From Eubacterium sp. (GTDB lineage Bacteria; Bacillota_A; Clostridia; Peptostreptococcales; Anaerovoracaceae), in assembly GCA_017425345.1 (NCBI GenBank), contig JAFOML010000023.1, forward strand, positions 1 to 17,476: 17,476 nt of DNA. The letters run 5' to 3'. The position numbers were made by a program, and so were the translations under genes. Under the pieces are notes generated by a model. The model saw nothing but the letters and a program-made list of their open reading frames with translations, made no database searches and was not told where the DNA came from. Numbering within the stretch: the stretch's first letter is position 1; every line of letters begins with the position of its first letter. This document shows positions 1,839 to 17,476 of the stretch, piece by piece.

Positions 1839-2885
1839 TCAGTCCCACGGATGGAGGACAACCTTGATGGCCTCTCCGGTTCTGGTCAGCTGGATGCCCT
1901 TGTTGATCTCGTCCAGCGGCAGAATGTGAGTGACAAACTTGTCGGTCGGGAAGATCGGGGAGATCGCCAGGTTGAATGCAGCCTTGGCCTGCTCATAGGA
2001 AGCACCGAACTGTCCCTTGATCCAGATGTTATTGTAGTGAACCAGGTTGGTGTCGAGTTCTGTGAGGGATCCCTTTGGAACGCCGCCGTGGAAGATGACG
2101 AGTCCGCCTTTCTTGACCATGTGGATCGCCTGAGCCTGGTTGATGTTTGCAGGAGTCGCGGAGATGACCTTGTCAGCGCCCTTTCCGTTCGTGAGCTTCT
2201 TGACCTCTTCGATCGGGTCAACATCGGAGTTGTTGATGATGACGTCTACGCCGAACTGCTTTGCCATTTCCAGTCTGTTCTGGTTGATATCGATCATGAT
2301 GACCTTCTGAGCGCCGCGGAGCTTAGCCAGCTGAGCCATAAAGTCGCCGATCGGGCCTGCGCCGATGATAACGATGGTGTCAGGGAATCCTACCTTCGCG
2401 TTTTCCATGGTGGAATAAACGGAGGTCAGAGGCTCTGCCAGGCTTGCTGCTTCGTAGGAAACGCCTTCCGGAATCTCATAGATGTTACCATAGTGGATCT
2501 TCTCTCCGCCAACTGCAATGTACTGAGCGAATCCGCCGGTGCCTGCGAGCTTGGCAACGTGCTCGTTCTCGCAGTTCTCGCTGTGTCCGCTGACGCATGC
2601 GTCGCACTCCATGCAGTAGGTACCCGGGTGCAGGAACAGTCTCTGTCCAACCTGGTACTTGGTGCATTCCGGACCAACTTCGTCGACAACACCTACGATC
2701 TCATGTCCGTAGATGAAAGGATAGTCACCTTTTCTGGAGTCCGTGGTCAGGTTACGGATATCAGAACCGCACAGACCGACAGCCATGATCTTCAGGATCA
2801 GTCCGTCCTTCGGGCAAACCGGCTTTTCGGTTTCTTCTACGCGGATATCGTTTGCGCCATACATCATTGCAGCTTTCATCTTCAT
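1839..2885 (-). CDS. Zinc-dependent medium-chain polyol/alcohol dehydrogenase (sorbitol dehydrogenase-like)
   Basis: This is a cytoplasmic MDR-family dehydrogenase of 348 residues, the usual length. Catalytic zinc ligands are C39 (GLCGSD), H61-E62 (GHE) and probably E151 (AEPLTS). The structural zinc is held by C91, C94, C97 and C105. The Rossmann motif GAGPIG is at 175-180, and D199 at the end of the second strand favours NAD over NADP. The family includes sorbitol, xylitol, threonine, butanediol and galactitol-1-phosphate dehydrogenases. Beside a sugar kinase and an aldolase, oxidation of a polyol to a ketose, or the reverse, is the likeliest job, but the substrate cannot be read from sequence. 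The start is supported by GAGGAG 7 bp upstream on the minus strand. It is transcribed divergently from the kinase, and both promoters carry the shared dyad. Confidence 0.93.
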   Translation of the reverse strand: MKMKAAMMYGANDIRVEETEKPVCPKDGLILKIMAVGLCGSDIRNLTTDSRKGDYPFIYGHEIVGVVDEVGPECTKYQVGQRLFLHPGTYCMECDACVSGHSENCENEHVAKLAGTGGFAQYIAVGGEKIHYGNIYEIPEGVSYEAASLAEPLTSVYSTMENAKVGFPDTIVIIGAGPIGDFMAQLAKLRGAQKVIMIDINQNRLEMAKQFGVDVIINNSDVDPIEEVKKLTNGKGADKVISATPANINQAQAIHMVKKGGLVIFHGGVPKGSLTELDTNLVHYNNIWIKGQFGASYEQAKAAFNLAISPIFPTDKFVTHILPLDEINKGIQLTRTGEAIKVVLHPWD

Positions 2886-2947: not shown

Positions 2948-2976
2948 AGTATATCCCATCAAAAAACGAACTGCAA
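2948..2976 (-). promoter_or_regulatory. Promoter of the zinc dehydrogenase
   Basis: Read on the minus strand, TTGCAG (2976-2971) is followed after 17 bp by TATACT (2953-2948). The -35 is a weak match, as expected for an activated promoter. The shared 20-bp dyad ends exactly 8 bp upstream of this -35. Confidence 0.6.
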
Positions 2977-2988
2977 ACAACGGTTTGC
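2973..2988. promoter_or_regulatory. Secondary inverted repeat overlapping the -35 region
   Basis: GCAAAC-AACG-GTTTGC is a perfect 6-bp inverted repeat. It overlaps the proposed -35 box of the zinc dehydrogenase and touches the main dyad at 2985-3004. It could be a separate repressor site or part of a larger operator. Only the symmetry supports it. Confidence 0.35.
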
Positions 2989-3004
2989 CGCTTGCTAACG
3001 GCAA
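2985..3004 (-). promoter_or_regulatory. Predicted operator A (dyad TTKCCK-N8-MGGMAA)
   Basis: Read on the minus strand the site is TTGCCGTTAGCAAGCGGCAA, with perfect outer arms TTGCCG and CGGCAA. It sits 8 bp upstream of the dehydrogenase -35. The same motif in the same orientation and spacing precedes the kinase, the aldolase operon and the ABC operon. Confidence 0.7.
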
Positions 3005-3038
3005 GTTTTTGGGGAAAAGGGGAAAATAGTGGCCATCT

Positions 3039-3058
3039 TTGCCGTTTATAAGCGGAAA
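3039..3058 (+). promoter_or_regulatory. Predicted operator B (dyad TTKCCK-N8-MGGMAA)
   Basis: The site is TTGCCGTTTATAAGCGGAAA. It lies 8 bp upstream of the proposed kinase -35 box. It matches operator A (minus strand) and operator C near 13111 at nearly every position outside the centre. Confidence 0.7.
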
Positions 3059-3066
3059 ATGTCGCG

Positions 3067-3095
3067 TTGCGCGGAGCGGACGGGTTTGCTACATT
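3067..3095 (+). promoter_or_regulatory. Promoter of the sugar kinase
   Basis: TTGCGC (3067-3072), 17 bp, TACATT (3090-3095). Both boxes are weak alone. The call rests mainly on their being placed relative to operator B exactly as at the other three promoters. Confidence 0.5.
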
Positions 3096-3150
3096 ATTAA
3101 TATGGAAAAGAATTGGCGTAACCGGAACGATAAATGAGAGGTATATGATC

Positions 3151-4704
3151 ATGAATAAAATTGAAAACTACCTGCTTGGCATGGACTGTGGAACGACGAA
3201 TATCAAGGCCGTGATCCTGGGAGAGGATGGAAAGGTGGTCTGCGAGGCGAGCCGCCCGAACCAGTTTATCAATCCAGGCCCCGGCATGCAGGAGCAGGAT
3301 GCGAATAAGTGGTGGGATAATGCGTCTTCGATCCTGAGAGAGATCACCGAGAAAGCTGGGACGGCGATCGTCAAGAGGATCCGGGGAATCTCTATCAGCT
3401 CCCACACCGTTTCCCTTCTTCCGCTGGATGCGAACGGCGTGCCTCTGCGCAATGCGATGACCTATCAGGACGGCAGATCCTCAGCAGAGCTCGCCTGGCT
3501 CGTGGAGAAGATCGGAAAAGAAAAGTTTGTGAACATCATCGGCGGACAGCCGTCGATTGCATTCCTTCCGGCGAAGCTCCTCTGGTACAAGAACCACGAA
3601 CCGGAGCTGTTCGCGAAGACACACTGCCTCCTGCAGTGCAGTTCCTACATTAACTATAAACTGACAGGTGAGATGACCTCAGATGTGGATCAGGCCTCCA
3701 GAACGCAGTGCATGGACCGCGTCACGCTGCAGTGGTCCAAGGAGATCGGCGATGCGATGGGTATCGATCTGGATTCCATCCTTCCGCCGCCGCGTCCGGT
3801 CGATGATATTATCGGTTTTGTCACCAATGCTGCCGCGGAAGAGACCGGTCTTCTTGCCGGAACCCCGGTCATCGCCGGCTGCTCGGACGCGATGGCATCC
3901 ATGTACGCGACCGGCATGAGCCGTCTGGGAGAGGCCGGTGAGGCGTCCGGAACGACTTCTTTAGTCTTTGTGGGAAGCACCGAGGCCAGCGAGCCGGATG
4001 TTCCGGTAGTTACGAGACCCTGCGGAATCGATGGCGTGCCATGGATCTTCGATGCGCCGATCCAGGCCAGCGGCGCCTCGCTGAAGTGGTTCATCGAGAC
4101 CATGGCAGCAGAGGAGCGCGCCTATGCTGAGGCAAATGGCAAGAACATCTATGAATACCTGAACGAACTCGCGCTGGAAGCGCCGGCAGGATGCAGAGGA
4201 CTTTTCTTCTTCCCATACCTGCTTGGAGAGAGAGCGCCGCTCTGGAATGATCACGCGAAGGGCATGTTCATCGGACTTGGGATGGATACCAGCAGAGCAG
4301 AGCTGGCGAGGAGTATCTTTGAAGGAACCGCTTTTGCGCTGCGGCATGTCATGGAGATGATCAAGGCATCCGGCGGAACCGCGCGCACGATCAGAATCTG
4401 CGGCGGCGGAGCCAAGAGCAGAACCTGGAACCAGATCAAAGCGTCCATGCTGAAGATGCCGGTATATATCCTGGCAGATGATTCCGGAGACGTTCCGGTA
4501 GGTGACTGCATGATCGTCGGTAAGAAGGTCGGTGTGTTCAAATCCTTTGAGGAGGCATCCAGCCGCGCGATCCGCATCAAGGAGATCATTCAGCCGGTGG
4601 ATGAGTGGGTCAATGCCTACGATAAGCTGTATCCGTATTACGTAAAAATGTACCAGGATCTGGATCAGGACCTGATGGACCTGAAGCAGACCCTGGCGAA
4701 GTAG
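3151..4704 (+). CDS. FGGY-family carbohydrate kinase (xylulokinase-like)
   Basis: This is a 517-residue ATP-dependent sugar kinase, typical of the FGGY family. The first ATPase domain opens with LLGMDCGTTNIKAVIL (phosphate-1 motif, residues 8-23). The catalytic base is probably D246 in AGCSDAM. The C-terminal domain has the adenosine-binding GGGAKS followed by WNQIKASML. FGGY kinases phosphorylate ketoses or polyols (xylulose, ribulose, rhamnulose, fuculose, erythritol, glycerol). With an aldolase and a zinc dehydrogenase nearby, the substrate is probably a ketose made by the dehydrogenase. ATG 3151 is chosen because GAGAGG (3136-3141) lies 9 bp upstream; ATG 3145 is too close, and longer in-frame starts would cross the promoter. 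It is monocistronic, with its own promoter and a downstream hairpin. Bacillus subtilis yoaDCB likewise combines a kinase of this kind with a hydroxyacid dehydrogenase and an MFS protein. Confidence 0.92.
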   Translation: MNKIENYLLGMDCGTTNIKAVILGEDGKVVCEASRPNQFINPGPGMQEQDANKWWDNASSILREITEKAGTAIVKRIRGISISSHTVSLLPLDANGVPLRNAMTYQDGRSSAELAWLVEKIGKEKFVNIIGGQPSIAFLPAKLLWYKNHEPELFAKTHCLLQCSSYINYKLTGEMTSDVDQASRTQCMDRVTLQWSKEIGDAMGIDLDSILPPPRPVDDIIGFVTNAAAEETGLLAGTPVIAGCSDAMASMYATGMSRLGEAGEASGTTSLVFVGSTEASEPDVPVVTRPCGIDGVPWIFDAPIQASGASLKWFIETMAAEERAYAEANGKNIYEYLNELALEAPAGCRGLFFFPYLLGERAPLWNDHAKGMFIGLGMDTSRAELARSIFEGTAFALRHVMEMIKASGGTARTIRICGGGAKSRTWNQIKASMLKMPVYILADDSGDVPVGDCMIVGKKVGVFKSFEEASSRAIRIKEIIQPVDEWVNAYDKLYPYYVKMYQDLDQDLMDLKQTLAK

Positions 4705-4708
4705 CGGG

Positions 4709-4737
4709 AGAACCGCGGAAGCGGTTCAGTTTCTTTG
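4709..4737 (+). terminator. Probable terminator of the kinase gene
   Basis: A 7-bp GC-rich stem, GAACCGC (4710-4716) and GCGGTTC (4721-4727), closes a GGAA tetraloop and is followed by AGTTTCTTT. It overlaps the last codons of the convergent regulator gene. The T-tract is interrupted, so it may be only moderately efficient. Confidence 0.6.
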
Positions 4738-6687
4738 AACCAGTAAGAGAGGGGAGTTCTTTATGTACTGAAGGACCTCCTCTTTTGTTTTGAGATTCTT
4801 GATCCCTTCCGGATCATATGCATCCTCGTAGAGGAAGTTCGTGAGCCGGAGGATCGCCGGCATATCGTCTTCTGTGAGCGCCGCGGCGACGATAATCCGA
4901 ATCTTATGCGCATTCCAGGTGATCCGGTGATCCAGCGTCACAATGGAGATCTGCGACTGTCTGGCCGGAACCAGAGAGTAGAGAAATACGACTCCGGGAA
5001 ATGCTGCGAAGGTGGAGATCTGCTCTCGCTTCAGAATGTCTTTCTGATAGGCGTCATCGACGATCCCGTTGTCGATGAACTGCTGCGTCACTCTTCGAAG
5101 GAGGTCGTCCGGTGTGGCAAAAGAATCCGCCTCGTGCCACCAGGCCTTTTTCAGGAGCCTGTTCAGAGAGAGATCTCTGGAGTACAGAGGCTTCAGGGTC
5201 TTTGTCATGATGTAGTGCGCGATCTCCTCCTGGTCCGACTCATTGAAGAACTGCGAGATGTACAAAGTCGTTGTCCCCGGGCTGTCCGTAATCTTTTTCT
5301 GCACGGTCGTGAGCACCAGATCCACATCAGTAAAGTCATAGGTATTCTTCTTATATACAGGAAGCAGGTCCACAATATCGAGGTAGTCGCCGAAGTGATA
5401 GCGGGCTTTCCGCTTGATGGCCCAGCTGACCGGCTGGTTCATGTGACAGGCAATGACCGTCCGGATCTTGTTTCCGGGATGATGCTTGATAAAGTGATCC
5501 AGCCCTCCCGCGATCACGTAAGACAGGTAGATCAGCTTGACCTCGTTCAGCTCCTTCCCCATGTACTTGACGGCAAGTGGCTGAAACAGCTCGGCGATGA
5601 CCATCTCGATCCGGTGGTGCCGCTTGATGCGGTCGGCGCTGAACTGCTCATAGAAAGTGTTGTGTCCCTGAAGGAGCGTCTGGATGTACTGGAACAGGGC
5701 GATGCGGAAATCGTGATCATCGGAGAAATCCATCTGGAAGGTTTCTGCGATCTGCCGGATATAGGTGTCCCCGCATTCGATCGTGTGGGGGCCGAAAGAC
5801 TCCCGGATTGCCTCTTCTGTGTAATTTCTCGGCGGAAAGATGCGATGGCTGCGGATCTGCAAGTAAATGGCGTCGCGCTCTTCCGGACCGATATAGAGGT
5901 GCAGCTGCTTTTCCAGCGCGTCCAGGATCGCGGTGGTCGCATTCAGCACATCCGGATCCGTCTTGGGGATCTGCGGTCCGTTGGCGAGGAAATGTCCGGT
6001 GGAGATCCGGTGGCACATGATCGTCAGAATCAGGTTGAGAGAGACGATGCACGGGTCCTCCATCTGGATGTCAAACCGGTCCAGACTCGCGGAAACGGTA
6101 TCGATGATGAAGTCCAGGACGTCGTCATCGACAAAATCTTCTTTATAGTAAGCGTTGCTTCTGGCGTGGTAGTTCCAGCTTTCCCGCAGCAGCAGATTCA
6201 GGACGCTGCGGCGTTTCAGCTCATCCTCTTCAAACCAGATATAATCGCGCTTCCGGTGGAGCCGGATGTAAGGCGCATTGTCCGAATAAGCGGAGGTCAG
6301 ATCCCGGATCGCATGTTCCAGGGTCGTGTGGCTGATGAACATCTCGTCCTCCAGGTCGTAGAGGTTCAGGGGCTCTTCACTCTGACAAAGTTTAAAAGCC
6401 AGGAACCGGACACGATTCTCTTTCGAGAAAAAAGCGTTATCGATCTGGTTCAGGGATTCGACCAGCTTGGGGTCTTCTGCGCGGAAAATATAGCCTTTGC
6501 TTTTCAAAGCCTCTATTTTAGCATTGTAGGGCGTCAGTTCATCGTTGATCTTGATGACGTCATTTCGGATCGTCCGGGAGGAGACGCCGAGTTCACCGGC
6601 GAGATCCGCGCTGGTTCTGGGAGAACTGGCGTGCTGCATGGTGTGGAGCAGCTTTTTTTGTCTCAGTGACAGGTCCAGAGATTTCAT
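4726..6687 (-). CDS. PRD-domain transcriptional regulator, MtlR/LicR-like (HTH-PRD-PRD-EIIB-EIIA)
   Basis: This is a 653-residue multidomain DNA-binding regulator. An N-terminal helix-turn-helix lies at about 8-48 (RTSADLAGELGVSSRTIRND), then a second winged-helix region (about 90-170), two PRD-like domains (about 185-290 and 300-405), an EIIB-like domain (about 407-500) that keeps C414, and an EIIA-like domain (about 510-650). In this family, PTS phosphorylation of PRD and EIIA histidines and the EIIB cysteine sets activity. By eye the expected histidines are missing: I220 and R279 in PRD1, A330 and Y390 in PRD2, and Y570 where EIIA normally reads Pro-His. The start has AAAGGA upstream. It faces the aldolase operon divergently, and operator D overlaps its own -35 region, suggesting autoregulation. 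It is probably the activator of the whole cluster, but this is inferred from position. Confidence 0.88.
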   Translation of the reverse strand: MKSLDLSLRQKKLLHTMQHASSPRTSADLAGELGVSSRTIRNDVIKINDELTPYNAKIEALKSKGYIFRAEDPKLVESLNQIDNAFFSKENRVRFLAFKLCQSEEPLNLYDLEDEMFISHTTLEHAIRDLTSAYSDNAPYIRLHRKRDYIWFEEDELKRRSVLNLLLRESWNYHARSNAYYKEDFVDDDVLDFIIDTVSASLDRFDIQMEDPCIVSLNLILTIMCHRISTGHFLANGPQIPKTDPDVLNATTAILDALEKQLHLYIGPEERDAIYLQIRSHRIFPPRNYTEEAIRESFGPHTIECGDTYIRQIAETFQMDFSDDHDFRIALFQYIQTLLQGHNTFYEQFSADRIKRHHRIEMVIAELFQPLAVKYMGKELNEVKLIYLSYVIAGGLDHFIKHHPGNKIRTVIACHMNQPVSWAIKRKARYHFGDYLDIVDLLPVYKKNTYDFTDVDLVLTTVQKKITDSPGTTTLYISQFFNESDQEEIAHYIMTKTLKPLYSRDLSLNRLLKKAWWHEADSFATPDDLLRRVTQQFIDNGIVDDAYQKDILKREQISTFAAFPGVVFLYSLVPARQSQISIVTLDHRITWNAHKIRIIVAAALTEDDMPAILRLTNFLYEDAYDPEGIKNLKTKEEVLQYIKNSPLLLVQRN

Positions 6688-6727
6688 GCGAGAGTCCTTT
6701 CTTTCTAGTGCTGTAAATCGTTGTTCT

Positions 6728-6756
6728 ATTATAGCAGATTATGTTTCCTCTTTGAA
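6728..6756 (-). promoter_or_regulatory. Promoter of the PRD regulator
   Basis: On the minus strand a consensus TATAAT (6733-6728) is preceded after 17 bp by a weak -35, TTCAAA (6756-6751). That -35 lies inside operator D, so a protein bound there would be expected to block this promoter while helping the divergent one. Confidence 0.55.
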
Positions 6757-6763
6757 GAGGAAA
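6744..6763 (+). promoter_or_regulatory. Predicted operator D (perfect 9-bp dyad)
   Basis: TTTCCTCTTTGAAGAGGAAA is a perfect inverted repeat of 9-bp arms around a TG centre. It fits the TTKCCK-N8-MGGMAA pattern of the other three sites and ends 8 bp before the -35 of the aldolase operon, the same distance as at the others. It is the most diverged site in base identity but the most symmetrical. Confidence 0.6.
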
Positions 6764-6771
6764 AAATGAAG

Positions 6772-6801
6772 TTGAACCGAAAAGCGACTATATACTAAGA
6801 T
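6772..6801 (+). promoter_or_regulatory. Promoter of the aldolase operon
   Basis: TTGAAC (6772-6777), 18 bp, TAAGAT (6796-6801). An overlapping TATACT at 6791-6796 has a better sequence but would leave only 13 bp to this -35. A leader of roughly 90 nt follows. The -35 is placed by its 8-bp distance from operator D. Confidence 0.45.
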
Positions 6802-6896
6802 GAGATCGTAAAAAAAGTTGTTTTGTCTACGGCTGGTTCAAAGCAAGCTGTAATAACCGGGGCCGCTAAGACCCTAAAAATCAGGAGGAAAAATAA

Positions 6897-7544
6897 ATGA
6901 AGTACGAAAACATCAGAAACCAGGTACTGGAAGCTATTCTGCAGGCTGTTGATATGGGACTCATCCATGGAACATCCGGAAACATCGCGATGAAGGATGA
7001 TAAGGACCCGGTAGTTGCTATCACACCGAGCGGAATTCCTTATACACACATGACAGCAGATCAGATCGCTATCGTTGAGCTCGAGACCGGAAAGTGGATC
7101 GATGGTCCGTTCAAGCCGTCTTCGGAAGTTCCGATGCATCTCGCTGTTATGAAGGCTAGACCGGAAGTTACCGCTACCGTTCATACCCACGGTATGTTCG
7201 CTACCATCGCTGCAATGGAAAAGTTTGGACCGATCCAGGCTGTTACTCCGCCGCAGGCTGAGTTTGTTCCGGTAGGCATCGTTCCGTTCACCATGCCGGG
7301 TTCCAACGAAGTAGCTGAGAAGGTCGTTGAGGCTCTGGGCGAGACCGGAAAAGTCTGCGTTATCAAGAACCACGGTATGATGTGCTGCGGTAAGGACATG
7401 AAGGGCGCTATGATGGCTGCTACTTATCTGGAAGAGATGGCACAGACCAACTACTACGCAAAGCTTCTGGGCGTATTCGAACCGATGCCGGAAGAGGCTG
7501 TAGCTAAGATGCAGGCCTTGATCGCTGCAGACCAGGCAGTATAA
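6897..7544 (+). CDS. Class II sugar-phosphate aldolase (fuculose/rhamnulose/ribulose-phosphate aldolase family)
   Basis: This is a 215-residue zinc aldolase of the FucA/AraD family, full length. Conserved features are GTSGN (25-29) and TPSG (43-46) for phosphate binding, catalytic E77 in SSEVPMH, and zinc ligands H96 and H98 (VHTHG) and H159 (NHG). The family mostly cleaves ketose-1-phosphates to DHAP plus an aldehyde (lactaldehyde or glycolaldehyde); some members are 4-epimerases, but the retained E77 suits an aldolase. As first gene of the operon it is followed by an iron alcohol dehydrogenase, the usual partner that reduces the released aldehyde. AGGAGG (6883-6888) lies 8 bp upstream of the ATG. 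The gene uses GCT and GTT codons more than most neighbours, as highly expressed genes often do. The exact substrate is unknown. Confidence 0.92.
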   Translation: MKYENIRNQVLEAILQAVDMGLIHGTSGNIAMKDDKDPVVAITPSGIPYTHMTADQIAIVELETGKWIDGPFKPSSEVPMHLAVMKARPEVTATVHTHGMFATIAAMEKFGPIQAVTPPQAEFVPVGIVPFTMPGSNEVAEKVVEALGETGKVCVIKNHGMMCCGKDMKGAMMAATYLEEMAQTNYYAKLLGVFEPMPEEAVAKMQALIAADQAV

Positions 7545-7573
7545 CGGGCGCCGGATGTCCCCCGCCGCCCGTT
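7543..7573 (+). other. Intercistronic hairpin at the left end of repeat copy 2
   Basis: AACGGGCG (7543-7550) and CGCCCGTT (7566-7573) form a perfect 8-bp stem starting inside the aldolase stop codon and ending inside the 67-bp repeat. No T-tract follows, so it is more likely a transcript-stability or processing element than a terminator. The matching arm of copy 1 would lie outside the window. Confidence 0.6.
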
Positions 7574-7632
7574 GCAGTCGTTCGCTACGTCCTTGACGTG
7601 CGAGCACGCCAGGAGCTACGCTCCGACTTAAA
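7566..7632 (+). repeat. 67-bp structured direct repeat, copy 2
   Basis: This stretch is identical to 12-78. It sits in the 115-bp gap between the aldolase and iron dehydrogenase genes and ends 10 bp before the dehydrogenase ribosome-binding site. It can form GGAGC-TAC-GCTCC (7612-7624) or, as an alternative, a longer stem pairing TCCT (7590-7593) with AGGA (7611-7614) around CGTGC-GA-GCACG. The two structures share bases and cannot coexist. Confidence 0.9.
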
Positions 7633-7659
7633 TTTGATCAACAGAAGGAGATTACAGAT

Positions 7660-8805
7660 ATGGGCTACAATTTCTTTATCAAGAGTAATATTGACTTTGG
7701 AAGAGGCGCGCTGGAAGATCTGGCGGGCATCATCCAGAGATACGGTATGAAGTCTGCTATGATCGTCTATGATGGCGGCGTCAAGGCAGCAGGCATTGCC
7801 GGTAAGGTCGTTGCGCAGGTGGAAAAGGCCGGGATCCCTTACGTGATCTTTGACGGCGTTATTCCGAACCCGACGAACGAAGTCGTTGAGGAAGCTGCTG
7901 CAAAGGCAAAGGAAGCTAAGGTTGACGGATTTGTCGCAGTAGGCGGCGGTTCCAGCATCGACCTTGCCAAGGCAGTTAACGTTCTGATGACAAACCCGGG
8001 AAAGATCGGGGAGTACGGTGGAATGAACATGGTCAAGAATCCGTGCCTGCCGCTGATCGCGATCCCGACAACCGCAGGAACCTCCAGTGAGATCACGAAC
8101 GTCAGCGCTCTGATCGACACCGAGAAGGTCGTGAAGTATGTCGTTATCGACAATAACATCGTTGCTTCCGACGTCATCGCTGACCCGGAACTGACGAGAA
8201 CCGTACCGAAGAGCGTTACCGCTGCTACCGGTATGGATGCGATCACCCACGCAGTTGAGAGCTACATCTCCAACATGGCGACTCCGCTGACAGAGTACAA
8301 TGCGCTGAAGGGACTCAGCATTCTGTACCACAACCTGCCGAAGGCTGTTGCAGACGGAAACGATATGGATGCCAGAGAGCAGATGATGCTCGGCTGCATC
8401 ATCACCGGTTTCAGCTTCTCCAACGCAAACCTGGGACTGGTTCACGGAATCGCTCATACGCTGAGCGCGCACTTTGGTCTTGCTCACGGAATGGCAAATG
8501 CATGCGTGCTGCCGTACGTTATGAGATATAACGCTGAGAGCTGCCCGGAGAAGATGGTCGACCTCGCTAAGGCGATCGGCCTGGAGCCTTCCGGAGATCT
8601 GGAAAAGGATAAGTATCTGCTTGCAGATGCGCTTCTCGACCTGACCAAGAAGCTGGAGATCAAGACGATCGAGCAGCAGGGAATCAAGAGAGAAGATCTC
8701 GACATGCTGGCTGACGATGTTATGAAGGAGCCTGTACTTGGCTTCAACCCGCGTCAGGATATGACGAAGGAAGACATCATTGCCATCATGGAACAGGCAT
8801 ATTAA
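7660..8805 (+). CDS. Iron-containing alcohol dehydrogenase (lactaldehyde reductase/FucO-like)
   Basis: This is a 381-residue group III alcohol dehydrogenase, full length. The NAD-binding GGGSS is at 95-99 and the family signature PTTAGTSSE at 136-144. Metal ligands are D193 and H197 (GMDAITH), H262 (LVHG) and H276 (LAHG), matching those known for FucO. It probably reduces the short aldehyde released by the upstream aldolase to a diol with NADH, balancing redox in fermentation. Related proteins act as 1,3-propanediol, butanol or sulphoacetaldehyde reductases, so the substrate stays open. The start is set by AGAAGGAG 9 bp upstream. It is separated from the aldolase by the structured repeat, while the next gene begins 2 bp after its stop. 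Confidence 0.93.
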   Translation: MGYNFFIKSNIDFGRGALEDLAGIIQRYGMKSAMIVYDGGVKAAGIAGKVVAQVEKAGIPYVIFDGVIPNPTNEVVEEAAAKAKEAKVDGFVAVGGGSSIDLAKAVNVLMTNPGKIGEYGGMNMVKNPCLPLIAIPTTAGTSSEITNVSALIDTEKVVKYVVIDNNIVASDVIADPELTRTVPKSVTAATGMDAITHAVESYISNMATPLTEYNALKGLSILYHNLPKAVADGNDMDAREQMMLGCIITGFSFSNANLGLVHGIAHTLSAHFGLAHGMANACVLPYVMRYNAESCPEKMVDLAKAIGLEPSGDLEKDKYLLADALLDLTKKLEIKTIEQQGIKREDLDMLADDVMKEPVLGFNPRQDMTKEDIIAIMEQAY

Positions 8806-8807
8806 TA

Positions 8808-9974
8808 ATGGATAATACAGGAAGCATCAAGATCCGCGTGGTGGCGACCGTGTTCGCCATCGCGCTGATCAACGGACTACAGCATCTGCTGTCCCCGGTG
8901 CTCTCCTCGGTTCGTGACTACTATCCGGATATCGACGTCAGCCTGGTACAGATGCTGGTTACTGTACCGACCCTGGTCGGAGTGTTTTTCGCACTACTGA
9001 CAGGATGGCTGGCGTTGCATGTCAGTAAGAAGAAAATTTTCTTATTCGCTGCGCTGGTATCCGGCATCACCGGACTGCTGCCCCTGCTTTCGGACAGCTT
9101 CGCACTGCTCTTCGTCTCAAGAGCGCTTTACGGAATGTCGCTGGGCATTGTAGTTTCGCTGGTGACCGCGCTTGTAGCCGACTTCTTTGACGGAGATGAG
9201 CGTGTGCAGATCATGGGCATTCAGGGGGCTTCCGTTGGAGCCGGTATGGTTCTGGTCACGACGCTCGCAGGTTTTATCGGAAGAACAGACTTCCACCACA
9301 CATATTATCTCAGCATTCTGGGATTTATCTCGTTTTTCGCGATCCTGGTCCTTCTGCCTGAGGTTCCGGTTGCGAAACCGGAAAAAGGGGAGAAGAAACA
9401 GATCCGGCTGAACGCCGAAGTGTTCCGGATGGCCGCCTTTATCTTCGCAGAAGGGTTCTTCATCATCATCTACACGACGAACCTTTCCATGCATCTGACA
9501 GGCGCTCTGAAGGGGGATGCGGCGATCGCAGGAACCCTGACCGGAATTTTCTCCGCAAGCCAGATCATCATGGGGATCCTGCTTGGCAGAATCGCGAAAG
9601 TGACGGGAAGATATACGCTTCCGGTCGCGCTGTTTTCGCTGGCAGCCGGATATCTGCTGACCGCGCTGTTCCCGGGATCGATGTCGATCCTGGCAGTAAG
9701 CGCCGTGCTGTGCGGATATTCGCAAAGCGTGTACTGCGCCAAAGCGATGCAGGAGGTCACCACCGTGGTGGATCCGGATTCGACCCCTATGGCGGCATCT
9801 CTGCTGACCTGCTCCCTGATGCTGTCGCAGTTCGTTTCCCCAGTCGTGGTCAATGCGCTGTCCGGTGTTCTGTTCGGATCCGTTACGACCACAGGGGCGT
9901 ACCTGATCGGAAGTGTCGGGGCCGCCGTCGCGGCGTGCGCAGCGGTATTGTGGAAGCGAAACAGTAATATTTAA
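8808..9974 (+). CDS. Major facilitator superfamily transporter
   Basis: This is a 388-residue polytopic membrane protein with about 12 hydrophobic segments in two halves joined by a charged loop (about residues 182-203, PVAKPEKGEKKQIRLN). An MFS-like loop follows the second segment (GWLALHVSKKKI, a variant of the GxLaDrxGRR motif). No substrate motif is recognisable. It begins 2 bp after the alcohol dehydrogenase stop with no good ribosome-binding site, suggesting translational coupling. With an ABC importer encoded next door it may export an end product such as a diol or acid, or take up an alternative form of the substrate. B. subtilis YoaB, also an MFS protein, is encoded beside a similar kinase and dehydrogenase. 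Confidence 0.88.
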   Translation: MDNTGSIKIRVVATVFAIALINGLQHLLSPVLSSVRDYYPDIDVSLVQMLVTVPTLVGVFFALLTGWLALHVSKKKIFLFAALVSGITGLLPLLSDSFALLFVSRALYGMSLGIVVSLVTALVADFFDGDERVQIMGIQGASVGAGMVLVTTLAGFIGRTDFHHTYYLSILGFISFFAILVLLPEVPVAKPEKGEKKQIRLNAEVFRMAAFIFAEGFFIIIYTTNLSMHLTGALKGDAAIAGTLTGIFSASQIIMGILLGRIAKVTGRYTLPVALFSLAAGYLLTALFPGSMSILAVSAVLCGYSQSVYCAKAMQEVTTVVDPDSTPMAASLLTCSLMLSQFVSPVVVNALSGVLFGSVTTTGAYLIGSVGAAVAACAAVLWKRNSNI

Positions 9975-10034
9975 CAATGTATATGTTGGTCTGTAAGGCA
10001 GGCCATTATGGATAGTAAAGAAAGGAATATAACC

Positions 10035-11087
10035 ATGAGAAAAGTTGCAGTTTGTACCCCGCTTCCGGGAGAAGTAATGGATCGCCTGAACAAGGATTGT
10101 GAAGTCGTGATCTGCGGAGAGCTGAAGCACGGAAAAGGAAACGTTACAGAAGAGCAGACTAAAGAAGAGTGCATGGGCTGCGAGATGATCGTTCTCGGTG
10201 ACGAAGTCGCAGGAGCTGACACCATCAAGGCATGGGCAGACGCAGGCATGAAGTTCATCGGCGTTGCTAAGGGAACACCGGTCACCGTAGACTTTGATGC
10301 GATTCAGGCAGCTGGTCTGGAGCTTTCCTACACACCGGGAAGAAACAGAGTCGCAGTAGCAGAATTCTGCATCGCTCTGATGCTGGCAGAGGCCAGAAAG
10401 CTGGCTGCAGCTGCAACCGGACTCCGCATGGGTGAGCATCTGGGCGAGCCGATGGAAGATATCTACGATGTACCGGACGTCAAGAACGTCATTTGGGGAC
10501 CGCTGGATGGAACACATCCGTATGACGATTACGGCATCGGATTCGAACTCTATGGAAAGAAGCTCGGTATTGCCGGTTACGGCGCGATCGGCCGCGAAGT
10601 AGCCGTTCGCTGCAAGGCTTTCGGTATGGAGATCCTGGCTTACGATCCTTTCCTCCCTGCAGAGCGCATTGAGGCTGATGGAGCAAGATCGGTTGATCTG
10701 GATACCATGCTCAGAGAGAGTGACGTCGTCAGCCTGCACCTGCCGGTACTGCCGTCCACCAGAGGCATGGTCAATAAGGACTGGTTCTCCAAGATGAAGC
10801 CGACTGCACTGCTTGTTAATACAGCAAGAGCTGCGGTTATCGACCAGAAAGATTTTGTCGAAGCACTGCAGAACGGCACCATCGGCGGCGCTGCAATCGA
10901 CGTTTACTGGAAGGAGCCGATCCCGGCGAACCATCCGCTGCTGAAGATGAGAAACGTAACGCTGACCCCGCATATCGCCGGACTGACCACAGACGTAGAC
11001 AGCTGGTCCGGAAAGATGATGGGATCTGAGGTACTGGCATATCTGGACGGAGAGCAGAGACAGTATCTGTGGAAGGTAAGAAAGTAA
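10035..11087 (+). CDS. D-2-hydroxyacid dehydrogenase family NAD-dependent oxidoreductase
   Basis: This is a 350-residue cytoplasmic enzyme of the D-isomer-specific 2-hydroxyacid dehydrogenase family. The catalytic Arg, Glu and His are R265 (NTARAAV), E294 (WKEPIP) and H313 (TPHIAG). The nucleotide-binding GYGAIG is at 181-186, with D204 in AYDP indicating NAD preference. An extra segment of about 40 residues (roughly 128-168, rich in Gly, Asp and Pro) precedes the Rossmann domain, making the protein slightly longer than classic members. ATG 10035 is chosen because AAAGGA lies 8 bp upstream and the protein then starts at the first strand (MRKVAVC); ATG 10008 would add nine polar residues. It may interconvert a 2-keto and 2-hydroxy acid, for example a sugar-acid or hydroxypyruvate-type product. 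Its substrate is unknown. Confidence 0.9.
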   Translation: MRKVAVCTPLPGEVMDRLNKDCEVVICGELKHGKGNVTEEQTKEECMGCEMIVLGDEVAGADTIKAWADAGMKFIGVAKGTPVTVDFDAIQAAGLELSYTPGRNRVAVAEFCIALMLAEARKLAAAATGLRMGEHLGEPMEDIYDVPDVKNVIWGPLDGTHPYDDYGIGFELYGKKLGIAGYGAIGREVAVRCKAFGMEILAYDPFLPAERIEADGARSVDLDTMLRESDVVSLHLPVLPSTRGMVNKDWFSKMKPTALLVNTARAAVIDQKDFVEALQNGTIGGAAIDVYWKEPIPANHPLLKMRNVTLTPHIAGLTTDVDSWSGKMMGSEVLAYLDGEQRQYLWKVRK

Positions 11088-11113
11088 TCTATATATAAGA
11101 AAAGGGTTTTATC

Positions 11114-13081
11114 ATGGGCGCGAAGAAATATCCTGGAAAAGAATTATATCCAAATCTGATGAGCCCGCTTCGGATTGGGAACCTCAGACTGAAGAACCGT
11201 ATCATTGCAGCTCCTACGAGCCCTGCAATGATCAGTTCGGAAGGTCATATGACTCCTGCTATGATCGCCTATCTCGGAGAGAAGGCAAAGGGCGGCGCTG
11301 CAGTCGTGACTTACGGGGAGGCCATTGTCCATTCGGCAACGGGAAAATCCCACAATAAACAGCTGCAGCTGGATGCCTACGGTGTCAAGCAGGGGCTCGC
11401 TGAGGCGGCAAGAGCGATCCATAACGGAGGCGCTTATGCCAATATCCAGCTTTCCCACGGCGGAAAGTACGGAGGACTCGCCAGTGTCGGAGGAGACTAC
11501 GGAAAAGAGGGGACTGCGTATGGTCCCAGTGAAGAAGATCTCCCGGAAGGCCATGTGGAAGAGATGCCAAAGGAGATCATTGATGAGATCGTCTGCGCAT
11601 ACGGAAAGGCAGCCCGTCTGGTCAAGGACTGCGGATTCGACATGGTCATGTTCCATGCGGCACACGGATGGCTGTTCTCGCAGTTCCTGTCCCCGGTCAT
11701 GAACCGGAGAACGGACGAGTACGGCGGGAGCTTTGAAAACCGGGCGCGCTTTATGATGGAGGCGCTGCAGGCGGTGAGAGACGCGGTAGGACCGCGTTTC
11801 CCGATCGAGATCCGCCTGTCCGGCGATGATATGTCAGAGAGCGGCCTCAGCATGGAGGAGTGCATTGAAGTCGCTAAGCTGGTAGATGACAAAGTCGATC
11901 TGATCAACGTATCCGTCGGCAACCACGAAGACCCGCAGCTGTTCTGCCGGACCCATCCGTCCTCGTTCTTCGAGCACGGCGTCAACGTCCGCTTTGCAGC
12001 AGAGGTCAGAAAGCATGTCAAAACACCGGTCACCTGCGTTGGCGCGCTGATCGATCCTGCCCAGATGGAGCAGATCATCCGGGACGGGATGGCAGACTGT
12101 GTGGAGATCGGCCGCGGCGAGCTTGCTGATCCGTACATTGCCAAAAAGGCGCTCTGCGGACTTGCAGAGGATATCACGCCCTGCATCCGCTGCTATGAGT
12201 GTTTTGCGGAAACCGGTCAGAGCGAGACTCTGAAGTGCACCGTTAATCCGGTCACCGGCCAGGAGATGTACCAGAAAGAGATCCGCCCGGCGGAGGAAAG
12301 CAAGCGCGTTCTGATCGCAGGCGGCGGCCCTGCGGGCATGGAAGCAGCGATCGTCTGCGCGGCCCGCGGTCATCGGGTCACGCTGGTGGATAAGGCAGAT
12401 AAGCTGGGTGGAAACCTCCATCCTGCCGGAGCAGCCTGGTTCAAGGAAGATATTCAGAGACTCTGTGAGGTTCTGATCGCCCGCGTGGAGAGATCCGGCG
12501 CAGAGGTGATCCTGAATACAGAAGTGACGCCGGAATACGTCCGCGAGATGGATCCGGACGCGCTGATCGTCGCAATCGGTTCAAACGAGCTGAGACCGCC
12601 AATCCCGGGCATGGATTCCGACAAGGTCGTTATGGCGATCGAAGCGGAGCTGCATCCGGAGAAGCTGGGTCATAAGGTCGCGATCATGGGCGGAGGCCTG
12701 GTAGGAAGTGAAGCTGCCATCGCGTTCCACGATGAAGGTCACGAAGTGGCGATCATCGAGATGAAAGGCGCGGTTGCAGAAGAGGTCAACTCCTTCTACC
12801 GCGGCGGACTTCTGCCGCAGATCGAGAGATCCGCGGAGATCTACACCGGAACGATGGTCAAGGAGATCACACCGGAAGGCGTGCGCTGCGTAAGAGACGG
12901 CGAAGAGATCCTGATCGAAGCAGATACCGTAGTCTGCGCGCTGGGATTCCGCGCGCCGTATGATCTGACGGATAAGCTGTGCGAGACTTGCGATGAGAGC
13001 TATATCATCGGAGACTGCAATAACGTCGGAAAGATTTATCAGGCAGTCAGCGGCGGATATTACACAGCGTCCCGCATTTAA
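11114..13081 (+). CDS. NADH:flavin oxidoreductase / 2,4-dienoyl-CoA reductase-like ene-reductase
   Basis: This is a 655-residue three-domain flavoprotein of the type seen in 2,4-dienoyl-CoA reductase, clostridial enoate reductase, trimethylamine dehydrogenase and BaiCD/BaiH. An FMN barrel of the Old Yellow Enzyme family (about 10-350) contains HAAHG (181-185) and NRRTDEYGGSFENR. A 4Fe-4S site is formed by C357, C360, C363 and C375; its C-x2-C-x2-C-x11-C spacing is one residue shorter than the C-x2-C-x3-C-x11-C usual in dienoyl-CoA reductase. An FAD domain has GGGPAG (403-408), and an NAD(P)H domain GGGLVG (526-531) with E549, suggesting NADH. It should reduce an activated C=C bond in the cytoplasm. 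It is last in the operon, with AAAAGGG ahead of its ATG. The substrate is unknown. Confidence 0.92.
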   Translation: MGAKKYPGKELYPNLMSPLRIGNLRLKNRIIAAPTSPAMISSEGHMTPAMIAYLGEKAKGGAAVVTYGEAIVHSATGKSHNKQLQLDAYGVKQGLAEAARAIHNGGAYANIQLSHGGKYGGLASVGGDYGKEGTAYGPSEEDLPEGHVEEMPKEIIDEIVCAYGKAARLVKDCGFDMVMFHAAHGWLFSQFLSPVMNRRTDEYGGSFENRARFMMEALQAVRDAVGPRFPIEIRLSGDDMSESGLSMEECIEVAKLVDDKVDLINVSVGNHEDPQLFCRTHPSSFFEHGVNVRFAAEVRKHVKTPVTCVGALIDPAQMEQIIRDGMADCVEIGRGELADPYIAKKALCGLAEDITPCIRCYECFAETGQSETLKCTVNPVTGQEMYQKEIRPAEESKRVLIAGGGPAGMEAAIVCAARGHRVTLVDKADKLGGNLHPAGAAWFKEDIQRLCEVLIARVERSGAEVILNTEVTPEYVREMDPDALIVAIGSNELRPPIPGMDSDKVVMAIEAELHPEKLGHKVAIMGGGLVGSEAAIAFHDEGHEVAIIEMKGAVAEEVNSFYRGGLLPQIERSAEIYTGTMVKEITPEGVRCVRDGEEILIEADTVVCALGFRAPYDLTDKLCETCDESYIIGDCNNVGKIYQAVSGGYYTASRI

Positions 13082-13110
13082 CTGTATTTCAGTCCGGATT
13101 ATTCCTCTTT

Positions 13111-13130
13111 TTGCCGTTACAAAGCGGAAA
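13111..13130 (+). promoter_or_regulatory. Predicted operator C (dyad TTKCCK-N8-MGGMAA)
   Basis: The site is TTGCCGTTACAAAGCGGAAA. It differs from operator B only at three central positions, though about 10 kb separate them, and lies 8 bp upstream of the strong -35 of the ABC operon. The surrounding CCTCTTT and AAAAAGG extend the symmetry. Confidence 0.75.
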
Positions 13131-13138
13131 AAGGTAGG

Positions 13139-13167
13139 TTGAGATGGAATTGTCTGATAACTATAAT
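13139..13167 (+). promoter_or_regulatory. Promoter of the ABC transporter operon
   Basis: TTGAGA (13139-13144), 17 bp, TATAAT (13162-13167). This is the best sigma-70-type promoter in the window, 11 of 12 consensus bases. It anchors the operator-to-promoter spacing used to read the weaker promoters. Confidence 0.82.
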
Positions 13168-13270: not shown

Positions 13271-14419
13271 ATGAAGAAGAAATTACTGGGAATCATTCTG
13301 TGTCTCGCAGTTGCCATGGTAGTTATGGCAGGATGCGGCGGCAGCTCCGAAGAACCTGCTGCTTCTGCTGCTGGCGGCAGTGCTGCTGGTGATGCTGCAG
13401 GCGCAAGCTACACCATCGGTTACAACAACTTTGGTGTTGGTGCTTATCCGCTTGACCTGAATGAGAAAGAAACAACTTATGCTATCGAGACCGCTGGCTC
13501 TCAGATAAAGGTTGCTAACGACAACTTCACCGTAGATAACGTAATCACTGACGTTAAGAACCTGATCTCCTCCAACGTTGACGGAGTCGTAGTATGGTGT
13601 GCTGCTGACACTCTTTACAACTCCCTGAACGACCTGATGCTGGACGCTAAGATGCCGTTCGCTCTGGGCGACAAGTATCCGACAAGTGAAGATACTATTG
13701 CTAAGTTCCAGGAGAACGAGTTCTTCGCAGGCGCTGTTTCCACCGACGATACCATCACTGGTGCTAACATGGCTGAGCGCGCATGGGAAGATGGACACAA
13801 GACTGCTCTGATCGTTGCTGCTGCACAGGGCGACACCAACCACGACGCAAGAGTTAAGGGCTTCACCGAGAAGTTCGAAGAGCTCGGCGGAAAGGTTCTG
13901 GGAACCGTACGCTGCGCAGATCCTTCTGAGGCTGTTCAGAAGTCCGGCGACCTGCTGGCTGCACACAAAGACGCTGATTGCCTGTATGGCTCCGGCGGTG
14001 ACTACTCCATCGGTGCTCTGAGCGCTATGGAATCCGCAGGCGTTGAGATGCCGGTTTACGGAACAGACGTTGACCCGAACGTCATCCAGGGCATCAAGGA
14101 CGGAAAGATCTCCGCTGCTACCGGTGCTGCAGGAACTTACTGCGGAACCTTCGCAGCTCTGCTGCTGATCAACTACCTCGATGGACATCCGATCCTGAAC
14201 GAGGATGGAAAAGCTCCGGCAACCAAGGGCGTTAAGACCATCATGATCACCAAGGACAACGTTGATGACTTTGAAGAGTACTGGATCAACAACGAGATCT
14301 TCTCTGAGGAAGAGCTCCAGAGCCTGCTGTACAGATACAACGAGAACGTTACCTGGGCAGACTATGAGAAGATGATCGACGAGTACAACTTCGAGAACAG
14401 AATGGCGGCTAAGCAGTAA
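13271..14419 (+). CDS. Sugar ABC transporter substrate-binding lipoprotein
   Basis: This is a 382-residue periplasmic-binding-protein-type lipoprotein of the ribose/galactose (type I) family. It has a signal peptide (KKK, then a hydrophobic stretch) and lipobox VMAGC with C22 lipidated, followed by a Ser/Ala/Gly-rich linker to about residue 45. The mature protein starts with a first strand, SYTIGYNNFG, and has two alternating alpha/beta lobes, including DGVVVWCAA and a late-lobe PVYGTDVDP segment typical of RbsB-like proteins. It is anchored outside the cell membrane and delivers substrate to the two permeases. AGGAGG (13257-13262) is 8 bp from the ATG. Codon use is strongly GCT/GTT-biased, and a hairpin follows the gene, both pointing to high expression relative to the membrane subunits. 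The ligand is unknown, probably a pentose, furanose or polyol. Confidence 0.93.
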   Translation: MKKKLLGIILCLAVAMVVMAGCGGSSEEPAASAAGGSAAGDAAGASYTIGYNNFGVGAYPLDLNEKETTYAIETAGSQIKVANDNFTVDNVITDVKNLISSNVDGVVVWCAADTLYNSLNDLMLDAKMPFALGDKYPTSEDTIAKFQENEFFAGAVSTDDTITGANMAERAWEDGHKTALIVAAAQGDTNHDARVKGFTEKFEELGGKVLGTVRCADPSEAVQKSGDLLAAHKDADCLYGSGGDYSIGALSAMESAGVEMPVYGTDVDPNVIQGIKDGKISAATGAAGTYCGTFAALLLINYLDGHPILNEDGKAPATKGVKTIMITKDNVDDFEEYWINNEIFSEEELQSLLYRYNENVTWADYEKMIDEYNFENRMAAKQ

Positions 14420-14456
14420 TCGACTAGTTAAGAAAGCAATCGTGTAAGACATACGT

Positions 14457-14485
14457 ATAGTGGGCTGGATCTTCCAGCCCACTAT
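14457..14485 (+). other. Intercistronic hairpin after the binding-protein gene
   Basis: A perfect 13-bp stem, ATAGTGGGCTGGA (14457-14469) and TCCAGCCCACTAT (14473-14485), closes a TCT loop. The following bases are CAGAAAGAAGG with no T-tract, and the permease ribosome-binding site comes directly after. It probably protects the upstream binding-protein mRNA from 3' decay, so more binding protein than permease is made. Confidence 0.8.
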
Positions 14486-14502
14486 CAGAAAGAAGGTATA
14501 TT

Positions 14503-15462
14503 GTGATAGGCGAAGAAAAAAAGGCCGGATGGGGTCTGAAACTCATTGTGATCGTCGCATGCATCGCCGTTCTGGTGATCCTGAACATGCTGACAGAAGG
14601 CAAGTTCCTGCAGCCTTCCAACCTCAAGACGATCGCTGTCAACGCATCGGTTCCTACCTTTACTGCATGGGCATTTGTATTTATCTTTGCAAGTGGATTC
14701 ATTGATCTTTCTCTTGGAGCCGTAATTGTACTGGCGGCTAACGTAGCAGGAACCTTCGGGAACTCCCTTGGATATCCCGGACTGGTCGTCACCGGACTTA
14801 TCACCGGTGTACTCTTAATGACTTTGAACTTTACCGTCTTCCAGGTGACCAAGATCCCTTCCTGGATCGCAGGTCTCGGATTGACGATGGTATATGAAGC
14901 GATTTCATCGTTTTATTCTGAACAGAGACTTCAGATGGGACTCCGCGTAGTTTCTCTCGAGTCACAGTTCCGCGCGCTGGGACGCGCACCGCTGGCATTC
15001 GTCGTTGTTCTTATCGGCCTCGTGGTGGCATATATTCTATACAACCGGACGACCATCGGACTCGATATACGAGCCATGGGTGATAACCAGGCCGTAGCCA
15101 GGAACATGGGTATCAAGCTTGGACGCACCGTCATCCTCTCCGGCGTGGTAGCAGGTATCTTCGTAGGATGCGCTGCATTCATGAAAGAGAGCTTTGCCGG
15201 AACCGTCAACGCTGTTACCGGACTGTCGAGCTTGTCTCAGACATTCCAGCCCCTCGCAGCGGCACTCCTTTCCCAGGCACTTGGTAAGCACATTAACATC
15301 ATTGTTGCTGTTATCGCAAGTACACTGTTCGTTATGGCAATCTTCAACTTCCTGACGCTGATGAACGTCCCGTCGGGAACATGGCAGGAAACTGTACTCG
15401 GAATTTCCGTCATCGTCTTCGGTGTCCTGGCCAATAGGAACACAAAGGAGGTCGTGAAATAA
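14503..15462 (+). CDS. Sugar ABC transporter permease 1 (RbsC-like)
   Basis: This is a 319-residue inner-membrane permease of the branched-chain/ribose type with about 8-10 hydrophobic segments. The hallmark GFIDLSLG is at 65-72, and the cytoplasmic coupling loop GDNQAVARNMGI at about 193-204 would contact the ATPase. It starts at GTG 14503, supported by AGAAGG 6 bp upstream; no in-frame ATG fits. Its stop overlaps the ATPase start (TAATG). Because a second, different permease is encoded after the ATPase, the channel is probably a heterodimer rather than the RbsC homodimer; YtfT-YjfF of E. coli (galactofuranose uptake) is a known example of that arrangement. Confidence 0.92.
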   Translation: MIGEEKKAGWGLKLIVIVACIAVLVILNMLTEGKFLQPSNLKTIAVNASVPTFTAWAFVFIFASGFIDLSLGAVIVLAANVAGTFGNSLGYPGLVVTGLITGVLLMTLNFTVFQVTKIPSWIAGLGLTMVYEAISSFYSEQRLQMGLRVVSLESQFRALGRAPLAFVVVLIGLVVAYILYNRTTIGLDIRAMGDNQAVARNMGIKLGRTVILSGVVAGIFVGCAAFMKESFAGTVNAVTGLSSLSQTFQPLAAALLSQALGKHINIIVAVIASTLFVMAIFNFLTLMNVPSGTWQETVLGISVIVFGVLANRNTKEVVK

Positions 15463-16967: not shown

Positions 16968-17476
16968 TGAAAAAGAATTCTAACTTCCAATTAATTGATG
17001 CGCTCCCAATCATCGCACTGGTAGTACTGGTAGTGGTATTCGGGATCACATCCCATGGCGGACTGTTCTCGTCCTTCAACATTCAGTCCGTGATCCGCGA
17101 CTCTATCCCGGTCATCCTGGGTGGTCTCGGTGTCATCTTCGTTATTGCAACCGGCGGATGCGACCTTTCCATCGGAGCTGTCGCTGCGGTAGCAGCAACC
17201 GTAGGCGCTTACTACGGCTCGCAGTTCGGCGCATGGGCGACCATCGTCATTGCGCTCCTGATCGGAATCGCTTCCGGAACATTCCTGGGATTCATCGTAT
17301 CCCGCTGCCACGTTTCTTCCTTCATGGCGTCTCTGGCGCTCCTGATGGGACTCCGCGGCTTCCTGAATGTTTGTAACGTAACCTGGGAACAGGTTTACCT
17401 GCCGGAGAGCCTGCTGTTCATCAACAAGTTCGGCCCAGCTCTGATCATCACCGTTATCGCGGTCGTGGTCATCGGA
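16967..17476 (+). CDS. Sugar ABC transporter permease 2 (RbsC-like), partial
   Basis: This frame stays open to the window edge, giving the first 170 residues of a second RbsC-like permease. The start overlaps the ATPase stop (TAATG). Hydrophobic segments are at about 10-27, 47-62, 70-83, 91-111 and 157-170, and the family hallmark is GGCDLSIG at 63-70. It differs clearly from permease 1, so the two presumably pair as a heterodimer. The C-terminal half, including the coupling loop, lies outside the window. Confidence 0.9.
   Translation, partial: MKKNSNFQLIDALPIIALVVLVVVFGITSHGGLFSSFNIQSVIRDSIPVILGGLGVIFVIATGGCDLSIGAVAAVAATVGAYYGSQFGAWATIVIALLIGIASGTFLGFIVSRCHVSSFMASLALLMGLRGFLNVCNVTWEQVYLPESLLFINKFGPALIITVIAVVVIG

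Follow-up and report, generated by a model that had tools for sequence, protein, structure and literature searches.

Introduction

Among the described systems with which the present one can be compared is that of MtlR, the activator of the mannitol operon in Bacillus subtilis and Geobacillus, which in the excerpts of PMC8560693 is built of two N-terminal helix-turn-helix (HTH) domains, PRDs, and EIIB-like and EIIA-like domains. In the present study we have analysed a stretch of 17,476 nucleotides from a Eubacterium sp. (contig JAFOML010000023.1; the whole stretch is called the window), in which the gene of a regulator with a similar set of domains lies among catabolic genes and four copies of a 20-bp dyad, TTKCCK-N8-MGGMAA. 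These dyads are very probably the operators of that adjacent HTH_11-Mga-PRD-EIIA regulator, which would act as an activator at housekeeping-sigma promoters. The proposal resembles what the accessible part of PMC3217849 reports for B. subtilis MtlR, a protein of the same architecture whose palindrome lies upstream of the -35 element of the sigma-A promoters that it activates.

The two systems also differ. The MtlR palindrome is of the TTGTCACA type, with letters other than those found here, and by our reading of the primers in the accessible part of PMC3217849 it lies 18 bp before the -35 element as against 8 bp here, which is one helical turn further; the authors of that source describe a conserved stretch of 42 bp at a distance of 7 bp from the -35 element of the MtlR promoter. 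Furthermore, MtlR serves an operon of the phosphotransferase system (PTS) and possesses the histidine of the EIIA-like domain, whereas the regulator described here has a tyrosine, and ABC and MFS transporters are found in the window. LicR and ManR, which serve PTS sugars, likely have the same architecture as MtlR and the present regulator. In the excerpts of PMC3217849, LicR and ManR of B. subtilis are grouped with MtlR and LevR as one type of activator.

More distant comparisons are offered by two other groups. The virulence regulators Mga, AtxA and AcpB include the solved structures whose folds come nearest to the N-terminal and PRD parts of our protein (AcpB, AtxA and MgaSpn); this group is devoid of an EIIA-like domain and, as far as the excerpts of PMC8560693 go, MafR has no conserved DNA sequence, whereas the operator here is sharply defined. 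The PRD-containing sigma-54 activators of the LevR/CelR type, from Clostridiales, likewise exert PRD-based control on sugar genes in related bacteria. According to the accessible part of PMC6615313 they have an AAA+ domain and act at sigma-54 promoters, whereas a Pfam scan gave no AAA+ match in the present regulator and the promoters are of the -35/-10 kind with 17-18 bp spacing; the features of the sigma-54 class (AAA+ domain, -24/-12 promoter) were not found in the regulator and promoters of the window. Our literature searches, whose coverage leaves out most subscription papers, found no description of this operator or cluster.

Results

Dyads and promoters in the window

The four dyads are the sole matches to TTKCCK-N8-MGGMAA without mismatch in the window, and all of them are intergenic, in a sequence of which 6.2% is intergenic. 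Each one is followed by N8-TTG-N17/18-TAnnnT. The elements, together with the regulator gene, are:

2985..3004, minus strand: putative operator dyad TTGCCGTTAGCAAGCGGCAA, facing the dehydrogenase gene, then N8 and TTGCAG
2948..2976, minus strand: predicted dehydrogenase promoter, -35 TTGCAG (2976-2971), N17, -10 TATACT (2953-2948); related loci share the geometry
3039..3058, plus strand: putative operator dyad TTGCCGTTTATAAGCGGAAA, facing the kinase gene
3067..3095, plus strand: predicted kinase promoter, -35 TTGCGC, N17, -10 TACATT
4726..6687, minus strand: regulator of 653 residues with HTH_11, Mga, PRD and EIIA-2 domains (Pfam), the proposed activator
6728..6736, minus strand: extended -10 (TGCTATAAT) of the predicted regulator promoter, 7 bp from the dyad at 6744
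6744..6763, plus strand: putative operator dyad TTTCCTCTTTGAAGAGGAAA for the aldolase operon, with the regulator promoter on its opposite side
6772..6801, plus strand: predicted aldolase operon promoter, -35 TTGAAC, N18, -10 TAAGAT
13111..13130, plus strand: putative operator dyad TTGCCGTTACAAAGCGGAAA, facing the ABC importer genes
13139..13167, plus strand: predicted ABC importer promoter, -35 TTGAGA, N17, -10 TATAAT

The original prediction had placed the four dyads at these positions, each pointing into the gene downstream, and a second reading of the sequence agrees with it; the gap of 8 bp to a TTG-type -35 and the 17-18 bp to the -10 that it claimed are exact at all four sites.

It is exceedingly improbable that the dyads are chance palindromes or belong to a structure formed in the transcript, for example the stem of a terminator. 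In 1000 dinucleotide shuffles of the window the mean number of dyads was 0.016 and never exceeded 1 in any shuffle, versus the 4 seen, and the full dyad-promoter pattern occurred in none of them, versus 4; a chance origin of the four dyads was rejected on these shuffles. When up to two mismatches are allowed the excess in the window is modest, with 13 places versus a shuffle mean of 7.2 and with 5 of 200 shuffles reaching 13, and in several copies the inverted repeat is imperfect. The dyads stand upstream of the promoters and are therefore outside the transcripts that those promoters start, and chance is also contradicted by the conservation and the fixed spacing described below. The pattern was built from the four window sites, and therefore the fair test of it lies in other loci.

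Conservation in related loci

Homologues of the regulator were aligned (alignment A1), and 79 genomic loci were retrieved with this alignment. The regulators of L001-L035, which comprise 583 kb, share about 32-67% identity over the best segment, and those of L036-L079 share 20-24%. In the 35 closer loci there are 38 strict dyads, versus about 1.05 expected in 583 kb under a first-order Markov model. At 37 of these 38 an N8-TTG is found on at least one side (on both sides at 2), and at 34 it is accompanied by TAnnnT at a spacing of 17 or 18. Analysing the 76 possible orientations, TTG occurs at offset 8 in 39, and at every other offset between 0 and 24 in at most 6. A looser inner pair gives 64 places, with N8-TTG present at 54 and absent at 10, and such a looser site with N8-TTG exists in 32 of the 35 loci. 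Clustering at 80% identity divides the 35 regulators into 28 groups, so that the sites do not descend from one recent copy. A lack of conservation in orthologous clusters had been named in advance as speaking against the regulon; the site is conserved, both in the related loci and in the regions upstream of the regulators.

The geometry of the promoters was analysed in 77 distinct N8-TTG sites, a set selected for the TTG and not for the -10. TAnnnT is located at spacing 17 in 54 of them and at spacing 18 in 15. The positions after the TTG are A in 65% and then G in 60% of the sites; the -35 elements are poor, with TTG conserved and the rest of TTGACA not. With transcription assumed to begin 7 nt downstream of the -10, the centre of the dyad would be at about -53 or -54. 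An A-rich stretch is also seen in the 77 aligned sites after the -10, near the expected start, at positions 60-70 counted from the start of the dyad.

The loci with distant regulators, L036-L079, contain 11 strict dyads, none of them with TTG at offset 8. At 9 of these 11 places, all within L037-L070, TAnnnT is found 31 or 32 bp past the dyad on at least one side, in a set that is small, includes three loci from Oceanobacillus and counts the nearly identical L037 and L038 separately. The distance is kept there without the TTG at offset 8, and thus the spacing from dyad to -10 may be older than the letters of the -35.

The regulator and its own promoter

By its sequence the regulator is a protein of the HTH_11-Mga-PRD-EIIA, or MtlR/LicR, type. 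Pfam detects HTH_11 (5.5e-12) and Mga (1.5e-6), both over their curated cut-offs, and two PRD domains are followed by EIIB-like and EIIA-like domains at the C-terminus. An AlphaFold2 model with a pLDDT of 87 matches the folds of AcpB, AtxA, MgaSpn, EIIA-Mtl and the LicT PRD. The phospho-acceptor histidine of EIIA is absent, the PHA histidine of 3oxp being aligned to Tyr570 in a profile alignment; among 65 homologues this position is Tyr in 32, His in 29, Phe in 3 and Pro in 1. In our own alignment the usual phospho-histidine positions of the PRDs appear not to be histidine. No cognate PTS was recognised among the window proteins scanned, the transporters found being of the ABC and MFS types, and no PTS family is among the 25 commonest of 143 families in the neighbouring open reading frames (ORFs) of the related loci, a survey of 136 of 141 ORFs from which L020, L032 and L035 were omitted as near-duplicates; a PTS may still be encoded in another part of the genome. 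Because of the tyrosine at the EIIA phospho-histidine position and the ABC importer in the cluster, the regulator may be uncoupled from the PTS.

A point missed by the original prediction is the possible double role of the dyad at 6744, which faces the aldolase operon on one side and the regulator promoter on the other. We examined 300 bp upstream of 36 regulators, namely that of the window, those of 33 of the 35 loci (the start is absent or unsure in L022 and L027) and those of L118 and L119, which come from two genomes found independently. Within this distance of the regulator start there is a dyad in 31 of the 36, and in 30 of these 31 the side facing away from the regulator has N8-TTG, the exception being L029. 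On the side toward the regulator, TGnTAnnnT is found exactly 7 bp past the dyad in 16 of the 31, including the window, and at other offsets in at most 2 each. In this arrangement the dyad extends from approximately -42 to -23 and overlaps the -35 region of the regulator promoter, which suggests an autorepression of the regulator through the same dyad. Two facts speak against it, namely that 15 of the 31 have no extended -10 at the 7-bp offset and that MtlR of B. subtilis autoinduces according to the excerpts of PMC3217849. In L011, L013 and L018 a separate TTGACA promoter is found further on, and autorepression would therefore not be universal.

The repressor-like position of the dyad over the -35 region, seen on the regulator's own side in those 16 of 31, could also be taken to mean that the same PRD regulator binds the dyads and represses the catabolic promoters. 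We consider this very unlikely. On the catabolic side the dyad stops 8 bp short of the -35 and leaves the promoter free, the poor -35 elements of these promoters are the usual mark of activated promoters, and the characterised MtlR is an activator in the accessible part of PMC3217849. Activation of the catabolic genes by the adjacent regulator is the reading that we follow below.

Genome-wide occurrence

A scan of related genomes was carried out in 16 of the 17 that carry the loci (the genome of L028 was left out), amounting to about 61 Mb by rounded sizes. The dyad with N8-TTG gave 41 matches versus 5 for a reversed control, and this enrichment answers the concern, raised together with the original prediction, that the motif could be just as frequent at random genomic positions. 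By our classification, 30 of the 41 matches are located directly before orthologues of window genes.

A census of the family gave dyad-N8-TTG in 38 of 200 genomes and the regulator in 5 of 200, using the A1 profile at E <= 1e-60, a cut by which diverged regulators may be missed. The pattern is present in 5 of the 5 genomes with the regulator versus 33 of the 195 without it. An orthologue of the dehydrogenase exists in 9 of 397 family genomes, and the pattern occurs somewhere in the genome in 9 of these 9; a class-wide search for the dehydrogenase returned 1 of 391 genomes, which is the centre genome itself, and the viral collection searched gave no relative. In G018, a genome from which the regulator is absent, 12 of 13 pattern matches belong to a repeated element with TTTCCTGCAAACGCAGGAAATTAGCGGATTG and variants, present on several contigs.

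The co-occurrence of pattern and regulator bears on whether another transcription factor, found together with the cluster, might bind the dyads. Some related regulators do have an AraC-type HTH protein encoded no more than 6.5 kb away (4 of the 136 ORFs scanned). In the window, one regulator only was recognised among the proteins scanned, which left out the ORFs 44-1737 and 16967-17476. Besides the 5 of 5 genomes, the site stays with the PRD regulator when the enzymes nearby are different ones: it still adjoins the regulator in L025, L026, L030 and L033, and L025 and L033 have none of the cluster genes of the window within the locus. We find the involvement of such a second factor highly improbable, and the PRD regulator encoded beside the dyads remains the proposed activator.

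Full-pattern sites were also found before a thiolase gene, or before an acyl carrier protein (ACP) gene with Pta/Ptb and an acetate/butyrate-type kinase, in L030, L089, L088, L121 and L011. The thiolase of L030 is followed by a ChsH2-type zinc-ribbon protein, and the genes of L089 and L011 were judged by likeness; Pta/Ptb and acetokinase families are found near the regulators in 7 and 5 of the 136 ORFs, respectively. These sites may represent a second half of the pathway or the targets of another regulator. Sites of this kind before non-cluster genes (aldehyde dehydrogenase, ACP-Pta-kinase, thiolase), as well as the recurrence of the motif core and of the dyad to -10 distance in loci whose regulators share only 20-24% identity, would fit an operator common to several paralogous PRD regulators, with the four genes answering to a mixture of them. 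We regard such sharing as unlikely, given that in each of the five positive genomes, where no more than 6 candidates were scored, only a single strong relative (E <= 1e-60) was found.

Several observations weigh against assigning the dyads to the adjacent regulator as its operators. Taken by itself the dyad has little specificity at genome scale, with 174 places versus 112 for the reversed control in the 16 genomes; it was rejected as a genome-wide marker, and the N8 promoter therefore carries much of the signal. Seven of the 41 matches lie before or near other genes of a plausible kind, namely MFS transporters (4, two of them assigned by likeness and the one in L018 separated by a transposase gene), a thiolase-like gene, an ACP-Pta-kinase set and an aldehyde dehydrogenase, and 4 of the 41 look like chance. 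No N8-TTG site exists in L022, L027 and L034 (L022 is cut at the regulator start and L034 is a short contig), and the dyad adjoining the L029 regulator has no N8-TTG. No dyad is found within 300 bp of the regulator in L015, L031, L034, L118 and L119 (5 of 36); sites occur elsewhere in the locus in L015, L031, L118 and L119. Among the five regulator-bearing genomes of the census, G016, G007 and G003 had already been used to see the pattern and only G050 and G124 are new, the sites of these two adjoining the same enzymes as in the window. The sole strict match of G003 (Catenibacillus) is away from the cluster, whose sites (L006, L129) are off the strict consensus. Finally, G184 has the cluster and the sites with no regulator found, on a contig that ends about 56 bp past the last site.

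The gene cluster

The remaining features of the window are:

1839..2885, minus strand: zinc-dependent medium-chain dehydrogenase (MDR; Pfam ADH_N, ADH_zinc_N)
3151..4704, plus strand: FGGY carbohydrate kinase (top NCBIfam model XylB, score under its cut-off)
6897..7544, plus strand: class II aldolase (Pfam Aldolase_II)
7660..8805, plus strand: iron-containing alcohol dehydrogenase (Fe-ADH), lactaldehyde-reductase-like (family scans)
8808..9974, plus strand: MFS transporter (family scan)
10008..11087, plus strand: D-isomer-specific 2-hydroxyacid dehydrogenase (2HADH; family scan)
11114..13081, plus strand: two-domain flavin oxidoreductase, OYE plus Pyr_redox, BaiCD-like (family scans)
13271..17476, plus strand: ABC importer, whole (family scans; last ORF judged from the ORF list)
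13271-14419, plus strand: ABC importer solute-binding protein
14503-15462, plus strand: ABC importer permease
15462-16967, plus strand: ABC importer ATPase
16967 to the window end (cut), plus strand: putative second permease-like ORF

A putative aldo/keto reductase-like protein with C-terminal cysteine clusters (44-1737) and a small lipoprotein-like ORF are located at the edge of the window and have no dyad.

Searches by tblastn with the window proteins revealed that the regulator is surrounded by the same genes in most of L001-L035. The shared neighbours are the dehydrogenase, FGGY kinase, class II aldolase, Fe-ADH, 2HADH and OYE, and often the MFS transporter. Some of the sites precede the operon of the aldolase or Fe-ADH and others lie between the kinase and dehydrogenase genes; in some cases an aldolase or OYE gene that stands apart also has a site before it. 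L012, L017 and L024 resemble the window in having two dyads between kinase and dehydrogenase, and in L003, L010 and L020 the two genes share a single dyad flanked by N8-TTG on either side. A single dyad for two divergent promoters was noted at L003 16679, L010 13989, L020 16492 and L089 1501. The solute-binding protein was matched in three related loci, with a site before it in L023 and L026 and none in L006. Thus, of the single pathway into which the original prediction had joined the four transcription units, the part that links dehydrogenase, kinase, aldolase/Fe-ADH and OYE applies generally, and the inclusion of the ABC importer is limited to few lineages. As for the MFS gene, such a site directly precedes it in L013 and L016, and in L018 an IS110-type transposase gene (13704-15506) is found 3' of a regulon-type site.

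From family knowledge we assume that a polyol is oxidised by the dehydrogenase, phosphorylated by the FGGY kinase and split by the class II aldolase, presumably into a triose phosphate and an aldehyde, the latter being reduced by the Fe-ADH. For the dehydrogenase, kinase, aldolase, 2HADH and OYE, the relatives with a solved structure are related at the family level only and none of them fixes the substrate. NCBIfam gave no score over a curated cut-off for ten window proteins among the matches listed (the best 25 for four of them), and a literature search for the pathway substrate gave no match.

Discussion

We propose that the regulator, presumably as a dimer and in response to an inducing signal, binds each dyad on the DNA face just upstream of the poor -35 elements. 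From this position it would recruit the housekeeping RNA polymerase to the promoters of the dehydrogenase, the kinase, the aldolase-ADH-MFS-2HADH-OYE operon and the ABC importer, and the whole catabolic set would in this way be induced together. The dyad next to the regulator gene would serve on one side to activate the aldolase operon and on the other to cover the -35 region of the regulator's extended -10 promoter, by which the level of the regulator may be kept down.

A wider picture can be put forward only tentatively, and we hold it to be possible but doubtful as a whole: a branch of the PRD regulators, having lost the EIIA phospho-histidine and being associated with an ABC or MFS importer instead of a PTS, might have left PTS control to run a non-PTS catabolic regulon, one and the same dyad might activate an operon and repress the regulator's own gene, and the 31-32 bp distance from dyad to -10 might extend across the Firmicutes.

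The comparison yields a searchable operator rule, dyad + N8 + TTG + N17/18 + TAnnnT, for a group of regulators from gut Lachnospiraceae and relatives. This rule permits the prediction of regulons from sequence and can delimit an uncharacterised pathway of six enzymes. Furthermore, the function of a PRD protein without PTS phosphorylation becomes directly testable.

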